Source: a virus. Taken from it: DNA of 21,346 nucleotides. Positions 476-17,536 of the stretch are shown one piece after another. The stretch covers positions 1 through 21,346 of the IMG/VR virus record IMGVR_UViG_3300032217_000375; one strand, given 5' to 3'. The position numbers were made by a program, and so were the translations under genes. The notes under the pieces are model-generated. The model saw only the letters and a program-made list of their open reading frames with translations. It searched no databases and was not told the DNA's origin. Every line of letters starts with the position of its first letter. The stretch's first letter is position 1.

Positions 476-912
476 TACTTGATGCGATCAGGTACGAATG
501 TATTCCAATCAGGCTCATGCTTCTGTACATAAGTGGTCTTACACTTAGACGGATCACCTTGTGCTGATGGGCAGAAGTATCCTTTGTAGATACCACCTTG
601 CTTTGATTGCCCTTGGATAGCAGTCATCTTTCCATGTGGACAGTTACGTCCGCCCCCAATAGAAGGGGCTCCGCTAAAAGGTGGTGTGTCTTGCTGGATT
701 ACTTGAGCGTTAGGAAACGCTTGAGTTACTGTTGCTAATGCTGCAGTGTTACCACGTACTGCACTCTCTAGTTCTGTTACTGCAGCCTTGATGGACTCTA
801 GCCCAAGTGCAATCACTTGATCTAATCCTGCTCCATCTTCTGCTCTTACTGTTACAAGACTACCTGCTGCAGTCTTGACTGTGATTGAGATGGGTGCTTC
901 TGTGCTACTCAT
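475..912 (-). CDS. 145-residue protein with C-terminal zinc-ribbon-like motif
   Basis: No family recognised with certainty. Residues 1-30 look beta-rich, 30-65 form a predicted helix, 70-90 are Pro/Gly-rich linker, and 91-124 carry a CPHG...FC...C set (C91, H93, C114, C124) that could bind one zinc. I chose ATG at 912 because AGGAG lies just upstream and because the start overlaps the nuclease stop by 8 bases; a longer in-frame reading up to 1023 lies inside the nuclease gene and has no comparable ribosome site. Its position between a nuclease and a helicase-type ATPase suggests a DNA-binding or recombination-accessory role. That role is inferred from context only. Confidence 0.7.
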   Translation of the reverse strand: MSSTEAPISITVKTAAGSLVTVRAEDGAGLDQVIALGLESIKAAVTELESAVRGNTAALATVTQAFPNAQVIQQDTPPFSGAPSIGGGRNCPHGKMTAIQGQSKQGGIYKGYFCPSAQGDPSKCKTTYVQKHEPDWNTFVPDRIK

Positions 913-1543
913 CGTCACTCTCCTGTTCTTGTTTAGTTGTCCATTCACATGCGGACGATAGCCCGCACATGTTACAGTGATCGAAGTTAGGTAGATAGAT
1001 GTTGTCCTTACGGGCGCGATCAAACATACTAACCAGCGCTTCGATCTTGTCGTCGGTCATGTCGGCAAGGTCGAACGCTTGCGACAATTCTCCCTTACGC
1101 GCCATCCAATAGTATCCTGTTGTTGCATGGATACCATAGATCTTGCGTAGACCGTAGGAGTAGAACGCTAGTTGTAGTGAACTACCAGGCACACGTTTGC
1201 CTGTCTTTAAGTCCACGATAATGTATTCACCTGTAGTAGTGTCAATGAATACGCGATCAAGAAACATCTTGACCATGATGCCATCAATGACTGGGTTCAT
1301 CTCAAGTTCAATACCTAAGTAACCTTGTTCAGTCACAGCAATCTTTAGATGTGGGTTGGCTTGACGCCACTCAATCCAGTTCTTGTAGAACCTAAAGCCA
1401 TTTGTGTACCACCAATCACCATCTTCTGGTGAGCGGGTACGTGCAGCAGCAACACGCCACTTGCTACGGTCGCCCCTATACTCAGGGCGTTCATCTGCAG
1501 TGGCATTCCACCACAGGTTCCATTGTTCTAATAGATCTTTCAT
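905..1543 (-). CDS. Cas4/RecB-like PD-(D/E)XK nuclease, C-terminal part
   Basis: This 212-residue frame carries most of a RecB/Cas4-family exonuclease: FLDRV with D96, VDLKTGK with D111 and K113, QLAFYSY with Q124 and Y128, and a C-terminal cysteine trio (C190, C193, C199) typical of the iron-sulfur cluster in Cas4/AddB-like nucleases. It lacks the N-terminal histidine motif and the first cysteine, which are found in the adjoining frame (1540-1731). Its ATG overlaps that frame's stop as ATGA, and I see no good ribosome site before it. Expression therefore probably depends on a -1 frameshift or on reinitiation. The expected role is end-resection or recombination of phage DNA. Nothing suggests CRISPR: no cas1, cas2 or array is visible. 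Confidence 0.8.
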   Translation of the reverse strand: MKDLLEQWNLWWNATADERPEYRGDRSKWRVAAARTRSPEDGDWWYTNGFRFYKNWIEWRQANPHLKIAVTEQGYLGIELEMNPVIDGIMVKMFLDRVFIDTTTGEYIIVDLKTGKRVPGSSLQLAFYSYGLRKIYGIHATTGYYWMARKGELSQAFDLADMTDDKIEALVSMFDRARKDNIYLPNFDHCNMCGLSSACEWTTKQEQESDDE

Positions 1544-1731
1544 GGGTTTAACTTATCGTATTCTTCAGAGGCACGGTGCACAGCACTGCCACCATAAAAC
1601 CACCATGAGGATTCTTCTTGTAGTTTAAGAACTCTGGACAAGTAGTACAGCCAGCCACATGATAGCCATGTGGTTAGGCTTGAGTAACTAATGTGTTCAG
1701 GTAATTGTTCGTTGTTAATTTCAATTGCCAT
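1540..1731 (-). CDS. Cas4/RecB-like nuclease, N-terminal part (split frame)
   Basis: This 63-residue frame matches the start of RecB/Cas4-type nucleases: ISYSSLTTWLSCGWLYYL, in which C25 would be the first iron-sulfur ligand, then GGSAVHRASEEYD with active-site H52. It starts after a strong AAGGAGAG ribosome site. It stops at TGA immediately after the heptamer AAACCCA. A -1 slip there reads straight on into the 212-residue frame and gives a protein of about 275 residues, a plausible full length. On its own this fragment has neither the catalytic Asp/Lys nor the cysteine trio. It is either half of a programmed-frameshift gene, half of a genuinely split enzyme, or a one-base deletion (mutation or assembly error). 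Confidence 0.75.
   Translation of the reverse strand: MAIEINNEQLPEHISYSSLTTWLSCGWLYYLSRVLKLQEESSWWFYGGSAVHRASEEYDKLNP
1543..1549 (-). promoter_or_regulatory. Candidate -1 ribosomal slippery heptamer A_AAC_CCA before UGA
   Basis: In the frame of the 63-residue ORF the codons are TTA AAC CCA TGA, so the last seven sense bases fit X_XXY_YYZ (AAA CCC A). A tandem slip by one base places AAA and CCC in the two decoding sites, and the next codon is the ATG of the downstream ORF. The adjacent stop would help by slowing the ribosome. Downstream I see only a weak stem (GTGG/CCAC), so a classical stimulator is not obvious. Confidence 0.4.
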
Positions 1732-1808: not shown

Positions 1809-1997
1809 CTAGTCTGCAGCCAACTCTGCATTAGACACGACAGGCATACCTGTTTCCCCTAGCCTAGCCCAGGCACAAGGGTAACAAAAGTTCTTGGAGT
1901 AGCCCTTCTCATCAAGATGGAAGTCTGTAATGGGCACCCAAATGGGTGCAGTACAGGTGTGGCATACTGTTAATTCACATACTCGTTTAGTCGGCAT
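1809..1997 (-). CDS. 62-residue CxxC protein
   Basis: Unrecognised small protein with two zinc-knuckle pairs, CHTC near residue 12 and CYPC near residue 38, likely folding around one zinc ion as a treble-clef or zinc ribbon. GGAG lies about 11 bases before the ATG, and the start overlaps the end of the 50-residue gene by 11 bases, so the two are probably translated together. It ends before the hairpin region that precedes the nuclease. It could bind nucleic acid or a protein partner. The neighbourhood (amidotransferase and amidoligase upstream, nuclease downstream) does not settle which module it belongs to. Confidence 0.6.
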   Translation of the reverse strand: MPTKRVCELTVCHTCTAPIWVPITDFHLDEKGYSKNFCYPCAWARLGETGMPVVSNAELAAD

Positions 1998-2139
1998 TGT
2001 GTTTAGGCTCCACTAATCTATGCACTACTGTCTCAGGATGGGTGACCACCTTTGACCATGCATGTGCTTCGTATGCTTCATTGAACGGTCCATAAATGTT
2101 GGCTATCTTGCCAAGGTTATATGCTATTAGGATAAACAT
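1987..2139 (-). CDS. 50-residue unknown protein in the amidotransferase operon
   Basis: The start at 2139 is preferred over a longer frame (to 2181) because it sits in a TAATG overlap with the amidotransferase stop and has TGGAG five bases upstream. The product begins MFILIAYNLG, a beta strand that looks internal rather than membrane-spanning, then a helix (FNEAYEAHAWSK), then an HPETVVHRLVEP strand. This beta-alpha-beta pattern could be a tiny one-domain protein. I recognise no family. Tight coupling to the amidotransferase suggests a shared process, but this is inference. Confidence 0.6.
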   Translation of the reverse strand: MFILIAYNLGKIANIYGPFNEAYEAHAWSKVVTHPETVVHRLVEPKHNAD

Positions 2140-3008
2140 TAGTACTCCATTACTAGTTGGTTGTTGCGTGGACGATAACAATCACATTCTAAATAGCCAA
2201 GATCGCAGTCAAAGCAGAAGCCACATTGGTAACATGTCTGTTCAGATAACTCAAGTTCTGCTGAGTCCATAACATACTGACAGTTTGCACACTCAACAAC
2301 TTCTTCTGCTGCTTCATCTAAGTCCATAGCCATGCCCGGCTTGGCATACTCTCTGCCCTTGGTGTCATATCCCATGTCGTAGTAGCCATCGTAGTAACCA
2401 ATGGTCTTTGTCTTGGCACGGTAAGCGGTAGCCCAAGACTCGAGAAAGCAAGTCTGGTTAGACCACCACACCCCATCAGTATCTTCCCAACCTGCATGTT
2501 GATTGAGTATATACAATGGATGCTTAGCAGCAGGATCAACGGTAAGCACCGCAAGTTTAGAACCACCAGTGTATTCTTCTAACATCTCCCACACATAGTC
2601 ATTGTCTAGTGCAGTGACACCACCAATGCCAGGTAAGATCTCGTCTGCAAAAATACGAGTGTCTGACCGGTCATCATTCTTTGGTGCTTCACAACTGAGA
2701 ATGCCGTTGTGTGCTAGGTATGTACGTTGGTCACCACCAACAGGGAATGGGTGACAGTTCTCTACTGTCTTACTACCGTGGGTAGCATAACGGGCATGCC
2801 AAATAGCATAACCTTCTGAGTACTGCATACGTAACTGTAAGAATCTATTGATAGATTCATCAGCATTCATCGTACGTTCTACGATGATGCGTTGTTCAGA
2901 TGGCACAGCAATAGCAAAGCCAAAGCCATGAGGATTGTTAAGCGCAGAGTTCTCTAACTTATCTAGGCTAGGAACTACATGCGGTGGTATTACACATAGC
3001 ATACACAT
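2139..3008 (-). CDS. Class II glutamine amidotransferase with C-terminal cysteine cluster
   Basis: An Ntn-hydrolase glutaminase that should release ammonia from glutamine for a partner enzyme. The start MCMLCV places Cys2 as nucleophile once Met1 is removed. Family motifs follow in order: NPHGFGF (25-31), WHARYATHG (70-78), NCHPF (84-88), AHNGIL (99-104) and SDTRIFADEIL (115-125). Residues 240-277 hold eight cysteines (240, 243, 259, 262, 265, 268, 275, 277), probably binding zinc; this tail is not part of the standard glutaminase domain. No synthetase domain is fused, so a partner is needed. The amidoligase immediately upstream (TAATG overlap) is the obvious candidate. GGAG lies seven bases before the start. 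The substrate of the pair is unknown. Confidence 0.85.
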   Translation of the reverse strand: MCMLCVIPPHVVPSLDKLENSALNNPHGFGFAIAVPSEQRIIVERTMNADESINRFLQLRMQYSEGYAIWHARYATHGSKTVENCHPFPVGGDQRTYLAHNGILSCEAPKNDDRSDTRIFADEILPGIGGVTALDNDYVWEMLEEYTGGSKLAVLTVDPAAKHPLYILNQHAGWEDTDGVWWSNQTCFLESWATAYRAKTKTIGYYDGYYDMGYDTKGREYAKPGMAMDLDEAAEEVVECANCQYVMDSAELELSEQTCYQCGFCFDCDLGYLECDCYRPRNNQLVMEY

Positions 3009-4672
3009 TAGTTGTCTCCGTTCGGGTCGTTGTCTTTTTCGAATGTCTCGTTCATGATGATGAACAAGTTAGGATATGTATCTGAGTTGGCAGTTACATA
3101 ATGTACAAATCTACCCCATGCAAATGGAGCAGACTTGTGTTGTATCTTTAGCGTGCGTGTGTACTCAACAGCAGCAGCAACAAACTCAATGCCACTAAGT
3201 ACTCGCTCCTTGCGAAGCGAACCTTTGAACACACGAATTTCAACGGTGTTTTCAGGCTCCATGTTTACTGCAGAGTAACGTCCAGATGATTGGTTACCAA
3301 ACTTTACCTTTGGTATGATCTTACCTTTGTCAGTGAACGATGCATACTGGTTGTTCTTACGACCAGCAAGACGCTCGACTTGACGTTGGTTGTCATAGAT
3401 TAACTTATTGAAACGCACAAGATGTGCTTCTCTAGAAGCATGCGTAGACCAGCCAAATGCAGTACGACTAACGTGTACATGCAAGCCACAACTACTACGG
3501 TTCCATGAACGAACACCCATCTTGCTGAGTTGCTTAAGGAAATTCCAATCAATGTCATTCTGATATGCAAACAAAGTATGAGGATGAGTAACAATCTCAA
3601 AGCCATTGGATAATGAACCATCTTCTTTAAGATAGACATGATCACTAAGTTCATTGATTACTATCTCAGCACAATCATTACGTGACTCATCACCACATAC
3701 TTCTACTTCTAGTTCTATACCTAGATAGTAAGGCTCGAAACTAGTTGGATAGAAAACGGGACGTGGTCGGTAACTGTAGTTATGAATGTACTCAGAGTAA
3801 GAAGATGTCTCTTCGTCATCTTCACATGTGTGACCATTGTCCTCATGGTATTCATAACCACAATCATCGCACTCAACATAGCCATCATAACAAGATTGGC
3901 ACATGTCTTCATCACGAATGCTAGAGTAAGTTAAGTTCCCATCAAAGGTATGATGACCACCGTACAAACACTCAATGATTTCTTCGTCAGCCTCATACTT
4001 ATCAAAGCATAGTTGACAATAATTGTCGTGACCAATTTGATTTGATGCTACGCCATACATCCAGTATTCATTACAACCTGGACATTTATAAGAACAGCGT
4101 TGGTGCACTGATACTTTAACATTATCAGCATCAAATGCTTGAATAGTTTTGTACCATGATTGTACTGTTACACCTTCGGGTGCAAGGAATCCATTACATT
4201 TGGCACAATCTTCATGCTCCCCTGTAGCAGGGGGGAAGATAGATTTAATAGATACAAGATCTTGCAAACCATAAGAAGATACGTTTCTTATATCTAATTC
4301 TCTGAGCGAACTAAATATAGTACGATAAAGAAAAGCATCAATACATGGACCACATAATTCATGGCCTAGTTCAGGTATTGGATCATTGATGCCAGTAGCG
4401 TGTTGATAAAGATGACTGATAGAACTACAACCCATCCACCCTGAACATATACCAACACCTACATACTCAATGGTGTCGTTAGTACCAAGAAAGAAGTTTC
4501 GTTCATCATCAGTGAGTGCATCCCATACGGATATGCTTGCATCCAACATAAAGCCATCATCATCTGCTGTGGTTTCAGTGAAATCATTTGCAGTTCTGAT
4601 ATGCAAATCTTGTTCCATAAGTAAAGCAATATGTGCTTCACGCTCAGGCGTTAGCACAAGTGTAGTTGTCAT
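3008..4672 (-). CDS. Amidoligase (glutamine-synthetase fold) with N-terminal zinc-knuckle array
   Basis: The C-terminal part (about 310-525) fits the COOH-NH2 ligase family with a glutamine-synthetase-like fold, which joins a carboxylate to an amine using ATP. Motifs are YLGIELEVE (316-324, glutamates for metal), KEDGSLSNGFEIVTHP (349-364), CGLHVHVSR (395-403) and TVEIRVFKGSL (476-486). The first 300 residues are unlike a minimal family member: CxxC or similar groups recur at 107/110, 156/159, 193/197/200, 219/222, 258/261 and 268/271/283, suggesting several zinc knuckles for binding a substrate or partner. GGAG precedes the ATG. It overlaps the downstream amidotransferase, which could feed it ammonia, and follows a secreted lysozyme-like gene by 21 bases. 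Possible targets are cell-wall peptides or a protein tail; this is inference. Confidence 0.8.
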   Translation of the reverse strand: MTTTLVLTPEREAHIALLMEQDLHIRTANDFTETTADDDGFMLDASISVWDALTDDERNFFLGTNDTIEYVGVGICSGWMGCSSISHLYQHATGINDPIPELGHELCGPCIDAFLYRTIFSSLRELDIRNVSSYGLQDLVSIKSIFPPATGEHEDCAKCNGFLAPEGVTVQSWYKTIQAFDADNVKVSVHQRCSYKCPGCNEYWMYGVASNQIGHDNYCQLCFDKYEADEEIIECLYGGHHTFDGNLTYSSIRDEDMCQSCYDGYVECDDCGYEYHEDNGHTCEDDEETSSYSEYIHNYSYRPRPVFYPTSFEPYYLGIELEVEVCGDESRNDCAEIVINELSDHVYLKEDGSLSNGFEIVTHPHTLFAYQNDIDWNFLKQLSKMGVRSWNRSSCGLHVHVSRTAFGWSTHASREAHLVRFNKLIYDNQRQVERLAGRKNNQYASFTDKGKIIPKVKFGNQSSGRYSAVNMEPENTVEIRVFKGSLRKERVLSGIEFVAAAVEYTRTLKIQHKSAPFAWGRFVHYVTANSDTYPNLFIIMNETFEKDNDPNGDN

Positions 4673-6356: not shown

Positions 6357-6767
6357 TTAGATACTTGCGTCAGCCATTTCGCACGCAGTGCATGTCTTGG
6401 CATAGATACTGAACGTCATGTTGCACCAGTTACAGATACGTTCAACTGGAAGCAACTCCAGGTCACGATCATCGTAACGATCTTCCATGAACACGACTGG
6501 CTCGACGAACTCACGACGGACTACGATATTACCTTCGTCATCTCTGCGACCACTAGGGTCGCGGGTCTCTGACGAGATCCAGTCATGACCGCTTGGTTGG
6601 ATGAGGTCACACTGGTAGATATGGGACAACTTACCTGCCACGACCTCGTCGTGGTCGCGGTTGTAGGCCGCGGCTTGTTCTTGTTCAGCGGGCTCAAGGT
6701 CGAGGATGTCTATGATGAATGCTTCGTACTGCGACCATGAGTACTCGTTGATTCCGTTGCTTGCCAT
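6357..6767 (-). CDS. 136-residue protein with C-terminal CxxC/CxxC zinc ribbon
   Basis: Unrecognised first gene of the left arm. Residues 1-45 are helical and acidic, the middle is charged (DPSGRRDDEGN near 70-80), and the C-terminus has CNWC (112-115) and CTAC (126-129), a short zinc ribbon. The ribosome site is weak (GAGAATAG before ATG). As the gene next to the divergent hub it would be transcribed first, which suits a regulatory or host-takeover role, but no motif says so. Its G+C and codon use look slightly higher than those of the downstream amidoligase by eye. Confidence 0.65.
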   Translation of the reverse strand: MASNGINEYSWSQYEAFIIDILDLEPAEQEQAAAYNRDHDEVVAGKLSHIYQCDLIQPSGHDWISSETRDPSGRRDDEGNIVVRREFVEPVVFMEDRYDDRDLELLPVERICNWCNMTFSIYAKTCTACEMADASI

Positions 6768-11937: not shown

Positions 11938-12374
11938 TGGCAAATCAAGTAGGCGGATACCGCCAGCCAAATAACCCTGCACCTGTCTCAGGTCCTGGTG
12001 CAATGTCACAACGCACCGATGGTGGAGCAACAGAAGGTATGTCTGCTCCTATGCAAACACAGGCTCCTAAGTACATGCCCGGTCTTGGGTATGGAAAGGG
12101 TGGAGAGAACATGGCTAACCAAGAGGCAGAGCCTCTAGCGGGTAACCCTGTTGCACCAATGACTCCTCCTGCAGTGCCTCTATCTGCCCCTACACAGCGT
12201 CCTGAAGAGCCTATTACTGCTGGCGTGGACTTTGGTCCTGGCCCAGGATCAGAGGCCGTACAGATTCCTAACATGGCTGTCTCTGCTTCACACACTATTC
12301 GTACTATTGCGCAAAATGACCCGACTGGACAGGCTGATCTACTCTACCGAGTATTACAAGACCGAGGTTTCTAG
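11937..12374 (+). CDS. 145-residue Pro/Gly-rich unknown protein
   Basis: The first about 105 residues are low-complexity (Pro, Gly, Ala, Gln, with QRTDGG, PGLGYGKGG, PMTPPAVPL) and probably disordered. The last 35 (VQIPNMAVSASHTIRTIAQNDPTGQADLLYRVLQDRGF) look folded and helical. This resembles a flexible linker with one docking helix, for example a minor virion or assembly protein. Start and stop overlap both neighbours by one base (TAATG, TAGTG), so it is translated with the giant gene. It has no cysteine. Function unknown. Confidence 0.65.
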   Translation: MANQVGGYRQPNNPAPVSGPGAMSQRTDGGATEGMSAPMQTQAPKYMPGLGYGKGGENMANQEAEPLAGNPVAPMTPPAVPLSAPTQRPEEPITAGVDFGPGPGSEAVQIPNMAVSASHTIRTIAQNDPTGQADLLYRVLQDRGF

Positions 12375-15300
12375 TGCCATTAAACCTTCCAACTCCTGGT
12401 CCTATTGGTGGTCTTGATCCCAACGTAGCGCTACATACACCAGCCCTTTACGCTGCTGCAGCAAATATGAACTTGCAGACACCACAGAAGAACCAACTTA
12501 ATCAGATTTCTTCAACCATTGGGTTGAACAAGCAATTGAGTGGTCTATCTACTGAGGCTGCACAAGCACAGTTCCATGCACTAGATCCAAACGTGCAGAC
12601 ACAACTTAAGGCTTTGTATGGCGATGCTCCATACATGAAGGCACAACAGAAGAACATTGTTTACCGTGCTATTGGTGACGTTACTGGTGCAGTACTAGGA
12701 CCATTCAAATGGGCCTTCAAGACTGTAGTCAATGACTATAACCGTATCTTGCCTGTTAATGCACCGTATCTTTATGCGCGTGAAGTGCAACAGGGCGCTA
12801 ATCCTTTTGCTTTCAGCACCATTCGTAACGCTTGGAACGGTAAGAACGTCTACGATATGGGTTCACTTGCTTCTCTTCGTAAGCAATACGGTGATACCGA
12901 TACCTATGTAGCAATGAAGTTGCTAGAAGGACAGAAGCCAGGTCAGATTGTTGACTCATACGGCGGGGTCAATAGCGAAATTATTGCTTCTATCACCAAG
13001 ATGTTTAACGACCCTAAGAACTTCCAGAACATGTTGGATCAATTCAAGGGTGCTCAAGTATCTGTTGGTCGTGATGCTGGTCGTATGCTTTTCAATCACC
13101 AGCCAGCAGACAACAAAGTTTACTCAAGCACAGGCTGGCACTTTGTTACAGGTGCTATTGATGCTGTAGCGCAGATTGTTTCTGACCCATTAACGTGGAT
13201 CACCGGCGGTACATCTAAGGCTGTAACCCGTGCTGATCGTCTGGGTGAGTTGCTTGCTAAAGATCCAAGTGCTGCTAACGTACAGAAGGTCTTCATGGAC
13301 AAGGGCCGCTTTGGTGGCATGAGTCCTTACGAAACTTGGGACAAAGTTGCTGGTCCTATCATTGAGCGTCTTGATACTGCTACTAAGGCTGGCGACAGAG
13401 CAGGCATCATTAGTGCTAAGAATGAGATTTCAAAAGTTATGCCTTCGTTGCGTAACGATGCAATGATTGAGATGCTCCGTAAGGAGAAAGTCTTTAACGG
13501 TGATGCAGCAATCAAGTTGTTCAGCGATGCTGAACCAATGCTTGAACTTATGGCTGGCCGCGTAGACGGCGCTACATTCTTCCGTTCTGGTATCCCCATT
13601 GCTACTCGCAGCCGTGGTCTTAACTCAAGAGTTAATGATCTTGTAGGCAGAGCGCTTAACGGAACTGCTACTGAAGAAGAAATGACTACTGGCTTTAGCA
13701 AACTTATGAGCGACATTGCTCACTCTAACGTAGCAAAGTCACCAGAGGCAGTCGTACAAAGCGAAGCACTTGCTGCTGAGACAGCAAAACTTTATTCTTT
13801 AAGTAAGAAAATTGGTCGTTTAACTGCACGATTCCCTGGCACTGAGGCAATTGGCGTTATGGATGGCAACGTAGACCAGAGTCTAAACGCTGTTCGCAAT
13901 CTTGCTCGCACTATCTACTCTAAATCTTTTGCTGACTACTTTGCTGAAGGTTTCAAGGCCTCTAACCCTGCAGACCGTGTGGTACTTCTTCGTGGTCTTT
14001 ACGTTCAGATCATGCACAACATGGGTCTTCACGGAACTGAAGAAGGCATCAAGTTGATGAATGAAATCCTTACTTCTAAATTTGGTGACAAGATTGGTTT
14101 TGCCAACAAGAAAGAAATCTACGTACCAGATCAGCACTTCACTGACATCCGTACTAAAGGTCCTGCATTTGAGAAGTCAACCAAAGAAGAAAATGGTTTG
14201 TTTAAGTACAACCATGAAGGCACTATTCATAACTTCAATGCTAAACCAGTAATTGGTAATTTGCCTTGGGGTCAACTGACAGACTATGCCTTTGCGATGA
14301 CACGCAAGCAAGGTCTGCGTGATGCTATCCATTCTACACAAGGCATTACCGCTCGTAAGTTTGCACGTGGCATGACTAACCAATGGTCTACAGCAACGCT
14401 TTTCCCACGCTTGGGTATCCGTTCTGCCATTGATGAAGCGTTCTTTTATAGCATGATGGCTCCAGGCGAAGACATGATGCGCTACTTCCTTGGACGCAAA
14501 CTCAACAAAGCCTCTATGGTTTTGCGCGGAACTGATACACAGATCCCACCAATTAAGCGTGCGATCCTTAATTGGCTAGACAAGAACCCTGCAAAGGCTC
14601 TCCAAGATTCAGATCGCATTAAAGACGTTACTCTTCCTAATGGTGAAGAAGTCAAGATGTGGGAAGACAAGGTTAATGTTGCTGAAAACGCCAACAACTT
14701 CCTAGAAGCAATCCTTCCTAAAGGCCGTGCAGTTGTTGATGAGGCTGGTAAAAAGACCTACCCACGTCAAGAGCGACTCATGGATTATATGAAGCAATTC
14801 TTTGTGCACACAGACGGCGTTGGTAACAACGCTATTGTAAATTCTGCCATTGGTAAGAGCACACTTGATGAAGGCAAAAGCGGCGGAGATCTTGCTGCGG
14901 AAATCTTTAACAAGTCTCACCTTACGCAGGCGTTTAAAGAAGAGAAGTTCTACCCTACTGGCGATTACGCCATTAAAGATGTAGAAGATATGAGCCCAGC
15001 AATGGTTGCTATGGCTCACTACAAGAACTGGTTCATGCGTTTTACACGCAATGCCAAGAACTTTGGCACAAAGTTTGATACATACTTCAACCCTGCTGAA
15101 ATTTTTATGAAGCATGGTGCTCTTATTGAGCATGGTTCCTTTGGTAAGGCTGTTGACGAAGCCCTTTCAAAAGTGGGTGTAAAAGCCACTGGCGAAGATT
15201 TAAAGGTTGTTGATGAAAAAGTTCTTAACAACTTCTTAACTGATTCACAACAAAGCGTTAAAGACATTGAGAACAACCTCAGCCCGGCACAATCTGCTCT

Positions 15301-17536
15301 TAACCGTATTGAAGCCATGTTCCTTGATATGCATGACACCTTCCATGGTGCAGCAAATAAAACCAACACTGGTCTTTATAGCCATATTATGAATACAGCC
15401 TCATCATTGCTGGATGCCTCTGTACAAGAAGGCGTTCCAACAATAACAAGAGGCAAAGCCGTGCGTAACGCGCTTGAAAGTATTGACTTTAAAACATTTA
15501 AGAATCTTACTGAAGGCTTCCGTCCTGAAACGACCATCAATACAGACCTTAACACTGCAAAAGATTTAACCAACGAAGGTTTTGTACAGAAGATGTTGCG
15601 TTGGACACAAGAAGCACCAGAGCAAGCCATGGAATGGATGGATGCGCAGAACAATCACTTGTTCCGCCAGCCTGTATTGATGCTAACCTATGTTAAGTAC
15701 CGCGAAAGGTACTCTGCATTAGAAGAAAAGTTCTACAACCAACTGGTTGAAGGCGGAGAAGACAAACTTGTAGCCCGTGAACTTGCTGAAAAGAAGTTTA
15801 CCGAGACTGCGTTGAGCCATGCATCCAATCTTGTGCTCAAGTCTGTAGATAATCCAGCAATCAAGTCTAATCTTGCATGGACACTACGTACTTCAGGTCG
15901 ATTCTACCGTGCTACCGAGGACTTCTACCGCCGTGTATGGCGCTTGAAGGACGTAACACCACAGGTTCTGTACCGCCTTCGTGCGGCTAGCCTAGGGTTA
16001 CAGTCAAATGGATTCATTCACCCAGATAACAATGGTGATCCATACCTAGTAATGCCAGCAGATAACATCATCTTCCATCTTGTTAACGGATCGACAGCAA
16101 TGTTCGGTGCCAATATAAAGCAACCTATGTTTGATGAGTTTGCTGTTAAGTTGGCTATGGGTAACCCATCATTCCAGCAAGATGCCGGTCAGCCTAGCCT
16201 TTCAGGGCCGTTTATGGCACTGCCTATCCTAGGTATTAAGACAATGCTTAAGGGTTGGGGTGGGGACCTAGGCGCTCAGGCGTCTACTGCTATTGATAAA
16301 GCGGTACTTGGTAACGTTAATCAGAATCTTACATTTACTAAAGCAATCGTTCCTTCAAGCATCCAGCGTATCTGGAACATGCTTGGTGTTGACGATCAAA
16401 GCCAGCAAGAAGTATCTGCAGGTATGCAGGCTATTGCCTATAACGCTGCACATGGCTTGTTCTTAACCCCTGAAAAGGTTAATGCTTTGCCAGCAGATCA
16501 ACGTCAAACTGTCATCAATAACTACCTACATGGCATCAGAATTACTGCGCATAACATTAACTTTATGCGTGGATTCCTTGGACTCATGTCCCCTATCGGG
16601 CCATCAGCACAGGAAAGCAAAGACGTTCCTACTTACCTTAAGAACGTAGGCATCAACGGTCTACGCCCTGAGTTCTCTGACATCTTGCAAAGCGTCATGC
16701 GTAACTCAAAGGGCATGATTCAAGACCCATACGGCGCAGCACTCATGGCATACACAGGTAAATACCCTGGCAAGTTGGTATATACCGTAGCCCGTGACCA
16801 ACGTTCTACCGCTTTAGCCTTGAGTTATACCAAGGAAATGCAGACTTATGTGGCGCAAAACTCAGGTCTTATCAATGACTATGGTGATGCTGCATTGATC
16901 TTTGCACCAAAGATTGGGCAGTACGACTCTAATGTATTTGCTTGGATGCAAGCATCAGGCATGATTAAGTCTCGTAAGTTGCAGGATTACTTTGATGAGG
17001 TAGCCGTTGCACAGGATCGTCAGAAGTATTACGACTATCGTGAGCAGGCTGTTGCAGCACAGGCAGATCCTGCCCTTGATGCTCAAACTAAAGCAAATAT
17101 TATTGCTGATTCAAACGCAATGATGAAGGCTATGAAGGCTTCCAACCCTTGGTTAGAGCAATCTTTGAACAACAAATCTTACGGTGTGGGTAAGCAGGAA
17201 CAGATGCTTACTAACCTACAAGACATGTTTAGAAACAACAAAGTACCTGTTAGCGCTGATCTTGCCAAGAAACTCAAGTGGGCTATGGATCTAACAACTA
17301 ATGCCCTATCTCAGATCAGGGAAATTAATAACCAGTCTGAGGTTTCTTATGTTGCTGGTGCTTCACAATTAAAACTCAAGTTTAAGACTGATGCAGTTAA
17401 CGCAATCCGCGAATTAGGTGGAGCACAGGGCAGCAATGCCCCTTCCAATCCACTCATTGCAGAGGCTCTTAAATCTATCTTCTTACCAGTGCTTGACTAC
17501 TATGCACGTAACCCGAATGGATTGGTGACTAAGTAA
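12374..17536 (+). CDS. 1720-residue giant virion-associated protein
   Basis: It starts at GTG in a TAGTG overlap, with GAGGT just upstream, and stays open for 5.16 kb. It has no long tandem repeats and no cysteine that I can find. Sequence is mostly helical; hydrophobic or amphipathic patches include YRAIGDVTGAVLGPFKWAF (about 96-114) and TGAIDAVAQIVSDPLTWITGG (about 256-276), and a longer one near 690. I see no Walker motif, protease triad, glycosidase motif or polymerase signature. It is inside the structural operon between portal and capsid, so an internal (ejection) protein or a large virion protein is most likely; a polyvalent, multi-domain ejected protein is another option. A tape measure is less likely here because tail genes are not adjacent and no coiled-coil repeats are evident. 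Confidence 0.6.
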   Translation: MPLNLPTPGPIGGLDPNVALHTPALYAAAANMNLQTPQKNQLNQISSTIGLNKQLSGLSTEAAQAQFHALDPNVQTQLKALYGDAPYMKAQQKNIVYRAIGDVTGAVLGPFKWAFKTVVNDYNRILPVNAPYLYAREVQQGANPFAFSTIRNAWNGKNVYDMGSLASLRKQYGDTDTYVAMKLLEGQKPGQIVDSYGGVNSEIIASITKMFNDPKNFQNMLDQFKGAQVSVGRDAGRMLFNHQPADNKVYSSTGWHFVTGAIDAVAQIVSDPLTWITGGTSKAVTRADRLGELLAKDPSAANVQKVFMDKGRFGGMSPYETWDKVAGPIIERLDTATKAGDRAGIISAKNEISKVMPSLRNDAMIEMLRKEKVFNGDAAIKLFSDAEPMLELMAGRVDGATFFRSGIPIATRSRGLNSRVNDLVGRALNGTATEEEMTTGFSKLMSDIAHSNVAKSPEAVVQSEALAAETAKLYSLSKKIGRLTARFPGTEAIGVMDGNVDQSLNAVRNLARTIYSKSFADYFAEGFKASNPADRVVLLRGLYVQIMHNMGLHGTEEGIKLMNEILTSKFGDKIGFANKKEIYVPDQHFTDIRTKGPAFEKSTKEENGLFKYNHEGTIHNFNAKPVIGNLPWGQLTDYAFAMTRKQGLRDAIHSTQGITARKFARGMTNQWSTATLFPRLGIRSAIDEAFFYSMMAPGEDMMRYFLGRKLNKASMVLRGTDTQIPPIKRAILNWLDKNPAKALQDSDRIKDVTLPNGEEVKMWEDKVNVAENANNFLEAILPKGRAVVDEAGKKTYPRQERLMDYMKQFFVHTDGVGNNAIVNSAIGKSTLDEGKSGGDLAAEIFNKSHLTQAFKEEKFYPTGDYAIKDVEDMSPAMVAMAHYKNWFMRFTRNAKNFGTKFDTYFNPAEIFMKHGALIEHGSFGKAVDEALSKVGVKATGEDLKVVDEKVLNNFLTDSQQSVKDIENNLSPAQSALNRIEAMFLDMHDTFHGAANKTNTGLYSHIMNTASSLLDASVQEGVPTITRGKAVRNALESIDFKTFKNLTEGFRPETTINTDLNTAKDLTNEGFVQKMLRWTQEAPEQAMEWMDAQNNHLFRQPVLMLTYVKYRERYSALEEKFYNQLVEGGEDKLVARELAEKKFTETALSHASNLVLKSVDNPAIKSNLAWTLRTSGRFYRATEDFYRRVWRLKDVTPQVLYRLRAASLGLQSNGFIHPDNNGDPYLVMPADNIIFHLVNGSTAMFGANIKQPMFDEFAVKLAMGNPSFQQDAGQPSLSGPFMALPILGIKTMLKGWGGDLGAQASTAIDKAVLGNVNQNLTFTKAIVPSSIQRIWNMLGVDDQSQQEVSAGMQAIAYNAAHGLFLTPEKVNALPADQRQTVINNYLHGIRITAHNINFMRGFLGLMSPIGPSAQESKDVPTYLKNVGINGLRPEFSDILQSVMRNSKGMIQDPYGAALMAYTGKYPGKLVYTVARDQRSTALALSYTKEMQTYVAQNSGLINDYGDAALIFAPKIGQYDSNVFAWMQASGMIKSRKLQDYFDEVAVAQDRQKYYDYREQAVAAQADPALDAQTKANIIADSNAMMKAMKASNPWLEQSLNNKSYGVGKQEQMLTNLQDMFRNNKVPVSADLAKKLKWAMDLTTNALSQIREINNQSEVSYVAGASQLKLKFKTDAVNAIRELGGAQGSNAPSNPLIAEALKSIFLPVLDYYARNPNGLVTK

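Follow-up and report, generated by a model that had tools for sequence, protein, structure and literature searches.

What a phage amidoligase and an adjoining class II glutaminase act on, and whether the large cysteine-rich regions carried by both proteins mark them as unusual, are the questions raised by the locus examined in this study. It lies on a viral contig of 21,346 bases, which was analysed in full and is referred to here as the window. Terminase and virion genes occupy the plus strand, a block of small genes lies on the minus strand, and no tRNA genes were found across the 21,346 bases. The actinobacterial regulator WhiB is absent from this 21-kb fragment and is encoded by all nine relatives of 38-42 kb; because the relatives encode it, and because the annotated matches of the window are mostly mycobacteriophages, the host of the virus is probably a freshwater actinobacterium.

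The larger gene of the pair (3008-4672, minus strand; 554 amino acids) encodes a poorly ordered N-terminus, a LIM-like zinc array and a ligase domain at residues 312-530 (3083-3739, minus strand), which a first sequence-only reading had assigned to the GS-fold amidoligases. The assignment is borne out by profile, invariant columns and predicted structure. Amidoligase_2 (PF12224) matches residues 349-500, inside the region (310-525) where the domain had been placed, with an E-value of 2.3e-5 and 24.8 bits against a curated cut-off of 22 bits, and it matches all 79 aligned ligase relatives (E up to 0.05). Structural analyses drew on the window and IMG/VR loci only. The AlphaFold model has a mean pLDDT of 83, mostly above 90 in the ligase domain, and its residues 311-554 superimpose best on YbdK (1r8g; Z 12.6, 222 residues, 4.2 Å), with many glutamine synthetases at Z 11-12. 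Thirteen positions are invariant among the 79 aligned ligases (G318, E320, E322, D351, S353, G357, E359, P364, H398, H400, N470, E478 and R480), leaving the acidic, histidine and arginine residues of a GS-fold active site intact (E320, E322, E359, H398, H400, E478 and R480). A sequence search of solved structures returned no amidoligase, no NCBIfam equivalog scored above its cut-off and the PADLOC defence search gave no match.

The second gene (2139-3008, minus strand; 289 amino acids) encodes a class II (Ntn) glutamine amidotransferase, as had been read from its N-terminal cysteine. Its glutaminase domain (2439-3008, minus strand) matches PF13230 (E 1.7e-7, 30.9 bits; curated cut-off 23 bits), and the best Foldseek match of its AlphaFold model is the glutaminase domain of GlmS (1xff). 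The N-terminal Cys2, R73, G78, H86, P87, H100-N101-G102 and D116 are invariant in 47 aligned glutaminases, so that the catalytic Cys, Arg, HNG and Asp elements are all retained. Both open reading frames lie on the minus strand and do overlap by a single base (TAATG). Pairwise distances among the ligases correlate with those among their glutaminases (r 0.64; permutation maximum 0.11), and this correlated sequence divergence shows joint inheritance, not proof of contact.

Seventeen cysteines precede the ligase domain and eight form the glutaminase tail. The array before the ligase is thus present as first described, at a shorter length: it spans residues 76-283, approximately 210 residues rather than 300, and residues 1-75 contain no cysteine and are mostly poorly modelled. 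Conservation was assessed in the window clade (27 ligases, relatives at approximately 35-69% identity). Predicted zinc site 1 (C76, C82, C107 and C110; 4343-4447, minus strand) is kept in 24 of the 24 members that have the region. Predicted sites 2 and 3 form a LIM-like double module (4007-4207, minus strand) with the pattern C156-x2-C159-x30-H190-x2-C193-x3-C197-x2-C200-x18-C219-x2-C222, kept in 26-27 of 27 members. A second LIM-like module (3824-3970, minus strand) holds predicted site 4 (C235, C258, C261 and the C238 position) and predicted site 5 (C268, C271, H281 and C283). The C238 position, the second ligand of site 4 in order, is cysteine in 25 of 27 members and glycine in the window and in L008, its closest relative, both of which carry H240 near the lost ligand. 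Apart from this position and from Cys197 and His281 (26/27 each), array ligands are conserved in 24/24 to 27/27 members, a level that, judged from the alignment, far exceeds chance and suggests about five zinc sites.

The eight-cysteine tail had also been read correctly (2178-2291, minus strand). Its pattern, C240-x2-C243-x15-C259-x2-C262-x2-C265-x2-C268-x6-C275-x-C277, fits two predicted zinc sites, and all eight cysteines are conserved in 20 of 20 clade glutaminases. Zinc binding by both regions is inferred from these ligand patterns; AlphaFold models place no metals, and the sites are predicted ones. The description of these regions as zinc knuckles was not upheld, since the knuckle spacing CX2CX4HX4C occurs in neither protein and the conserved ligands are spaced CX2C / HX2C / CX2C / CX2C. 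By spacing they are LIM/treble-clef-like modules. A profile of the ligase family weakly matches the LIM domains of PINCH (E 9e-4), and Pfam LIM is matched by 7 of 79 ligase relatives (best 7e-6). Residues 156-222 follow the ligand order of the LIM reference (PF00412; CX2C-X16-23-HX2C-X2-CX2C-X16-21-CX2C/D), but their loop is 30 residues long and their link three residues, and the window protein itself gives no Pfam LIM match.

Hundreds of phages and mobile elements besides the window carry the same pair with similar zinc-binding regions. In a first viral scan of 80 close loci, a glutaminase match lies directly downstream of the ligase in 79, the contig of the remaining locus stops 30 bases past the ligase, and the glutaminase tails hold 7-9 cysteines where they are not cut off. 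The 79 include L073, whose positions 2443-4023 were considered as a natural ligase-glutaminase fusion and rejected; the junction deletes the glutaminase start and catalytic cysteine, the N-terminal array is not in frame, and the copy is therefore broken or misassembled. With three further scans, the survey covered 251 distinct ligase domains, which group into 87 clusters at 60% identity; 79 clusters could be assessed: 69 have both a CxxC array and a glutaminase, three the array only (among them L114 and L219), three the glutaminase only (among them L123 and L224) and four neither. A same-strand glutaminase neighbour is therefore present in 72 of 79 clusters, and an array likewise in 72 of 79. 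A bacterial survey of 80 loci with 88 ligases (Nocardia, Actinokineospora, Ruminococcus, Ignavibacteriae and others) gave a glutaminase within 1.5 kb for 87 ligases and an array for all 88. These pairs come from Actinobacteria, Firmicutes and Ignavibacteriae MAGs, and the gene surroundings of several resemble conjugative or integrated elements; mycobacterial plasmids also encode the ligase, one of them with an annotated glutaminase-like neighbour. The coupling of the two genes proposed from the window thus holds across both surveys, where they are rarely apart. The proposal that the cysteine regions are unusual does not: a ligase array is standard among these phages and mobile elements, and the regions are therefore ordinary for the family, the eight-cysteine tail being common to the whole window clade and to gp106 of mycobacteriophage Marvin.

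The exceptions are of use in their own right. Neither a cysteine array nor a detected glutaminase accompanies the ligases of L005, L091, L092, L094, L098, L099 and L100; ligases of this kind include those of a C. difficile phage group and its kin, and they offer a natural comparison for the contribution of the array and the partner. Several viral (L103, L105, L107, L125, L128 and L225) and bacterial loci (L324, L325, L328, L330, L333, L372, L382 and L384) have two amidoligases close to a single glutaminase or to two, and here CxxC counts often differ between the copies, a difference that could reflect different targets. Ten long members were examined for fusion to a telling extra domain and none had one. 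Across 106 diverse loci, no third gene was found family-wide and the glutaminase was the only neighbour found in most; therefore, two genes seem to be enough.

A locally conserved companion was found downstream of the pair, a 62-residue CxxC protein (1809-1997, minus strand) with homologues approximately 180 nt downstream in 54 of the 81 loci of the clade survey; it is conserved beside the pair in the window clade and not family-wide. In many loci of this clade, the pair is followed by this small protein and WhiB. Other features of the region were observed separately. A PD-(D/E)XK exonuclease (phrog_1870; 905-1731, minus strand) is split into two open reading frames, 1540-1731 and 905-1543, which overlap at ATGA. 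The split is kept in 27 of 27 related loci compared, at about the same place and in a different frame, with approximately 145 nt between the parts in some loci and none in close relatives; in L028 this insert can be read as a small CxxC open reading frame. The split may reflect a nuclease conserved in two pieces or a site of frameshifting. Adjoining the virion genes is a 1720-residue protein (12374-17536, plus strand) with a best PHROG match of E 0.058. A 136-residue protein (6357-6767, minus strand) carrying CNWC and CTAC motifs close to its C-terminus gave no family matches of note and is likely, from its motifs, another small zinc-ribbon protein.

Among known systems, the closest counterpart is Marvin (cluster S) gp105/gp106, which shares with the window the two genes, their order, the cysteine-rich ligase N-terminus and the tail, at approximately 31-34% identity. 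It differs in having a shorter ligase array (seven cysteines before the domain), extra C-terminal Cys and a 79-base gap in place of the overlap. The phiEco32 and LUZ24 phages also place a PF12224-type ligase beside a class II glutaminase, but their ligases have no CxxC or zinc array; CxxC motifs are confined to the C-terminal part of a much longer glutaminase (two and four motifs in LUZ24 and phiEco32), which shows that either partner can carry CxxC elements. Their cassette also contains a COOH-NH2 ligase, a RimK-like ATP-grasp protein and a gamma-glutamyl cyclotransferase (GGCT), genes not found in the window clade. The best structural match, the YbdK/GCS2 carboxylate-amine ligases, has the same fold as the window ligase; these enzymes are not known to have a zinc array or a glutaminase subunit of their own. 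MurT has a Mur-ligase fold and GatD is a class I glutaminase, whereas the window pair combines a GS-fold ligase with a class II glutaminase. The MurT/GatD pair amidates peptidoglycan in S. aureus, and the likeness to the window lies in ATP-dependent carboxylate amidation with a separate glutaminase subunit (PMC3267633). In OM43 phages MEP401 and MEP402, an amidoligase with an N-terminal CxxC region adjoins a GATase, as in the window, but the ligase has only two CxxC motifs and the glutaminase has no CxxC tail (PMC10580990).

Combined, the two folds, the intact catalytic residues, the near-obligate pairing and the conserved zinc ligands point, with somewhat more confidence than doubt, to a two-subunit glutamine-dependent amidating enzyme whose zinc modules recruit the substrate and/or hold the partners together. 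After removal of Met1, Cys2 of the glutaminase would free ammonia from glutamine, and the ammonia would move to the GS-fold ligase. There, a substrate carboxylate would be activated with ATP, presumably by way of an acyl phosphate like that of glutamine synthetase, and converted to a primary amide. The LIM-like modules may act as a protein-binding scaffold, recruiting a macromolecule (in all likelihood a protein or peptide) as substrate and/or keeping ligase and glutaminase together. Precedent among GS-fold ligases and class II glutaminases gives the chemistry a good grounding; we infer the amine source and its transfer, the carboxamide product, the macromolecular substrate and the role of the zinc modules. 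Searches of literature and structures found neither a solved structure nor an assay for any Amidoligase_2 pair, and the literature found reports no substrate for an amidoligase-glutaminase pair.

The sequence-only reading had further proposed that the two cysteine regions dock to each other or grip a shared substrate. Gripping is possible; docking is not favoured. Among 67 paired glutaminases, a CxxC tail is present in 25, each of which adjoins a ligase with four or more CxxC motifs; 42 have no tail, and 19 of these likewise adjoin ligases with four or more. Because most glutaminases do without the tail, docking through it cannot be general to the family. Co-occurrence of array with glutaminase and of array with tail was also tested on a tree built from 86 ligase domains, and neither test was significant because independent changes were too few (five each for glutaminase, array and tail).

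The principal competing explanation, which deserves consideration as a minority view, is that the pair amidates stem-peptide carboxylates (iso-Glu or diaminopimelate), altering the wall during infection to block superinfecting phages or protect the wall. Actinobacterial walls are often amidated, and the WhiB genes of the window relatives make such hosts probable. Wall modification against superinfection was proposed for phages with an amidoligase and a glutaminase in the papers on the phiEco32/LUZ24 cassette, the available passages of which contain no experimental test of it (PMC5498523, PMC11945000, PMC10580990), and MurT/GatD provides a ligase-glutaminase precedent. However, no GGCT, COOH-NH2 ligase or RimK was found in the 21-kb fragment or in the nine relatives of 38-42 kb, which may themselves be incomplete; the GGCT and COOH-NH2 ligase probes did find members in other records searched, and the RimK probe did so in control genomes. 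Given these undetected enzymes and the array-less LUZ24 and phiEco32 ligases, the phiEco32/LUZ24 explanation fits the window poorly. In addition, a wall precursor needs no large protein-binding arrays, and the pair is present in hosts with different walls.

It is less probable still that the ligase attaches an amino acid, polyamine or peptide and that the glutaminase-fold protein is a hydrolase trimming or reversing the product rather than an ammonia donor. The ligase model does resemble PafA/Dop, the enzymes that attach and detach the small protein Pup, as well as gamma-glutamyl-methylamide synthetase, and the partner fold also matches the Ntn hydrolase EgtC; but the partner keeps the classical glutaminase set (Cys, R-x2-T-x-G, HNG and Asp), and near-obligate pairing with a one-base overlap is easier to reconcile with a synthase than with two enzymes working against each other. 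Amidation of a carboxylated base in DNA or tRNA was also weighed, since zinc arrays are able to bind nucleic acid and phages make many modified bases; it appears very improbable, as no gene for making a carboxylated base was recognised next to the pair, the family shares no third gene and the profile similarity is to protein-binding LIM domains.

The amidating enzyme remains the preferred reading, and the window pair is an ordinary, Marvin-like two-gene form of a known but biochemically untested kind, an assignment that follows from GGCT, COOH-NH2 ligase and RimK going undetected in the 21-kb fragment and the nine relatives. The survey sets this two-gene form with LIM-like arrays apart from the phiEco32/LUZ24 cassette, which is better known, and thereby weakens the case for transferring the wall-modification label by habit. 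It finds that the two genes hardly ever part in the phages, plasmids and mobile elements of several bacterial phyla. It also indicates a tractable test case, Marvin in M. smegmatis. Tentatively, the family may be a widespread two-gene system of mobile elements that amidates side chains or C-termini on particular proteins of host or phage, the target being selected by interchangeable LIM-like zinc modules. If so, the pair would carry out a protein modification of a kind new to bacteria.
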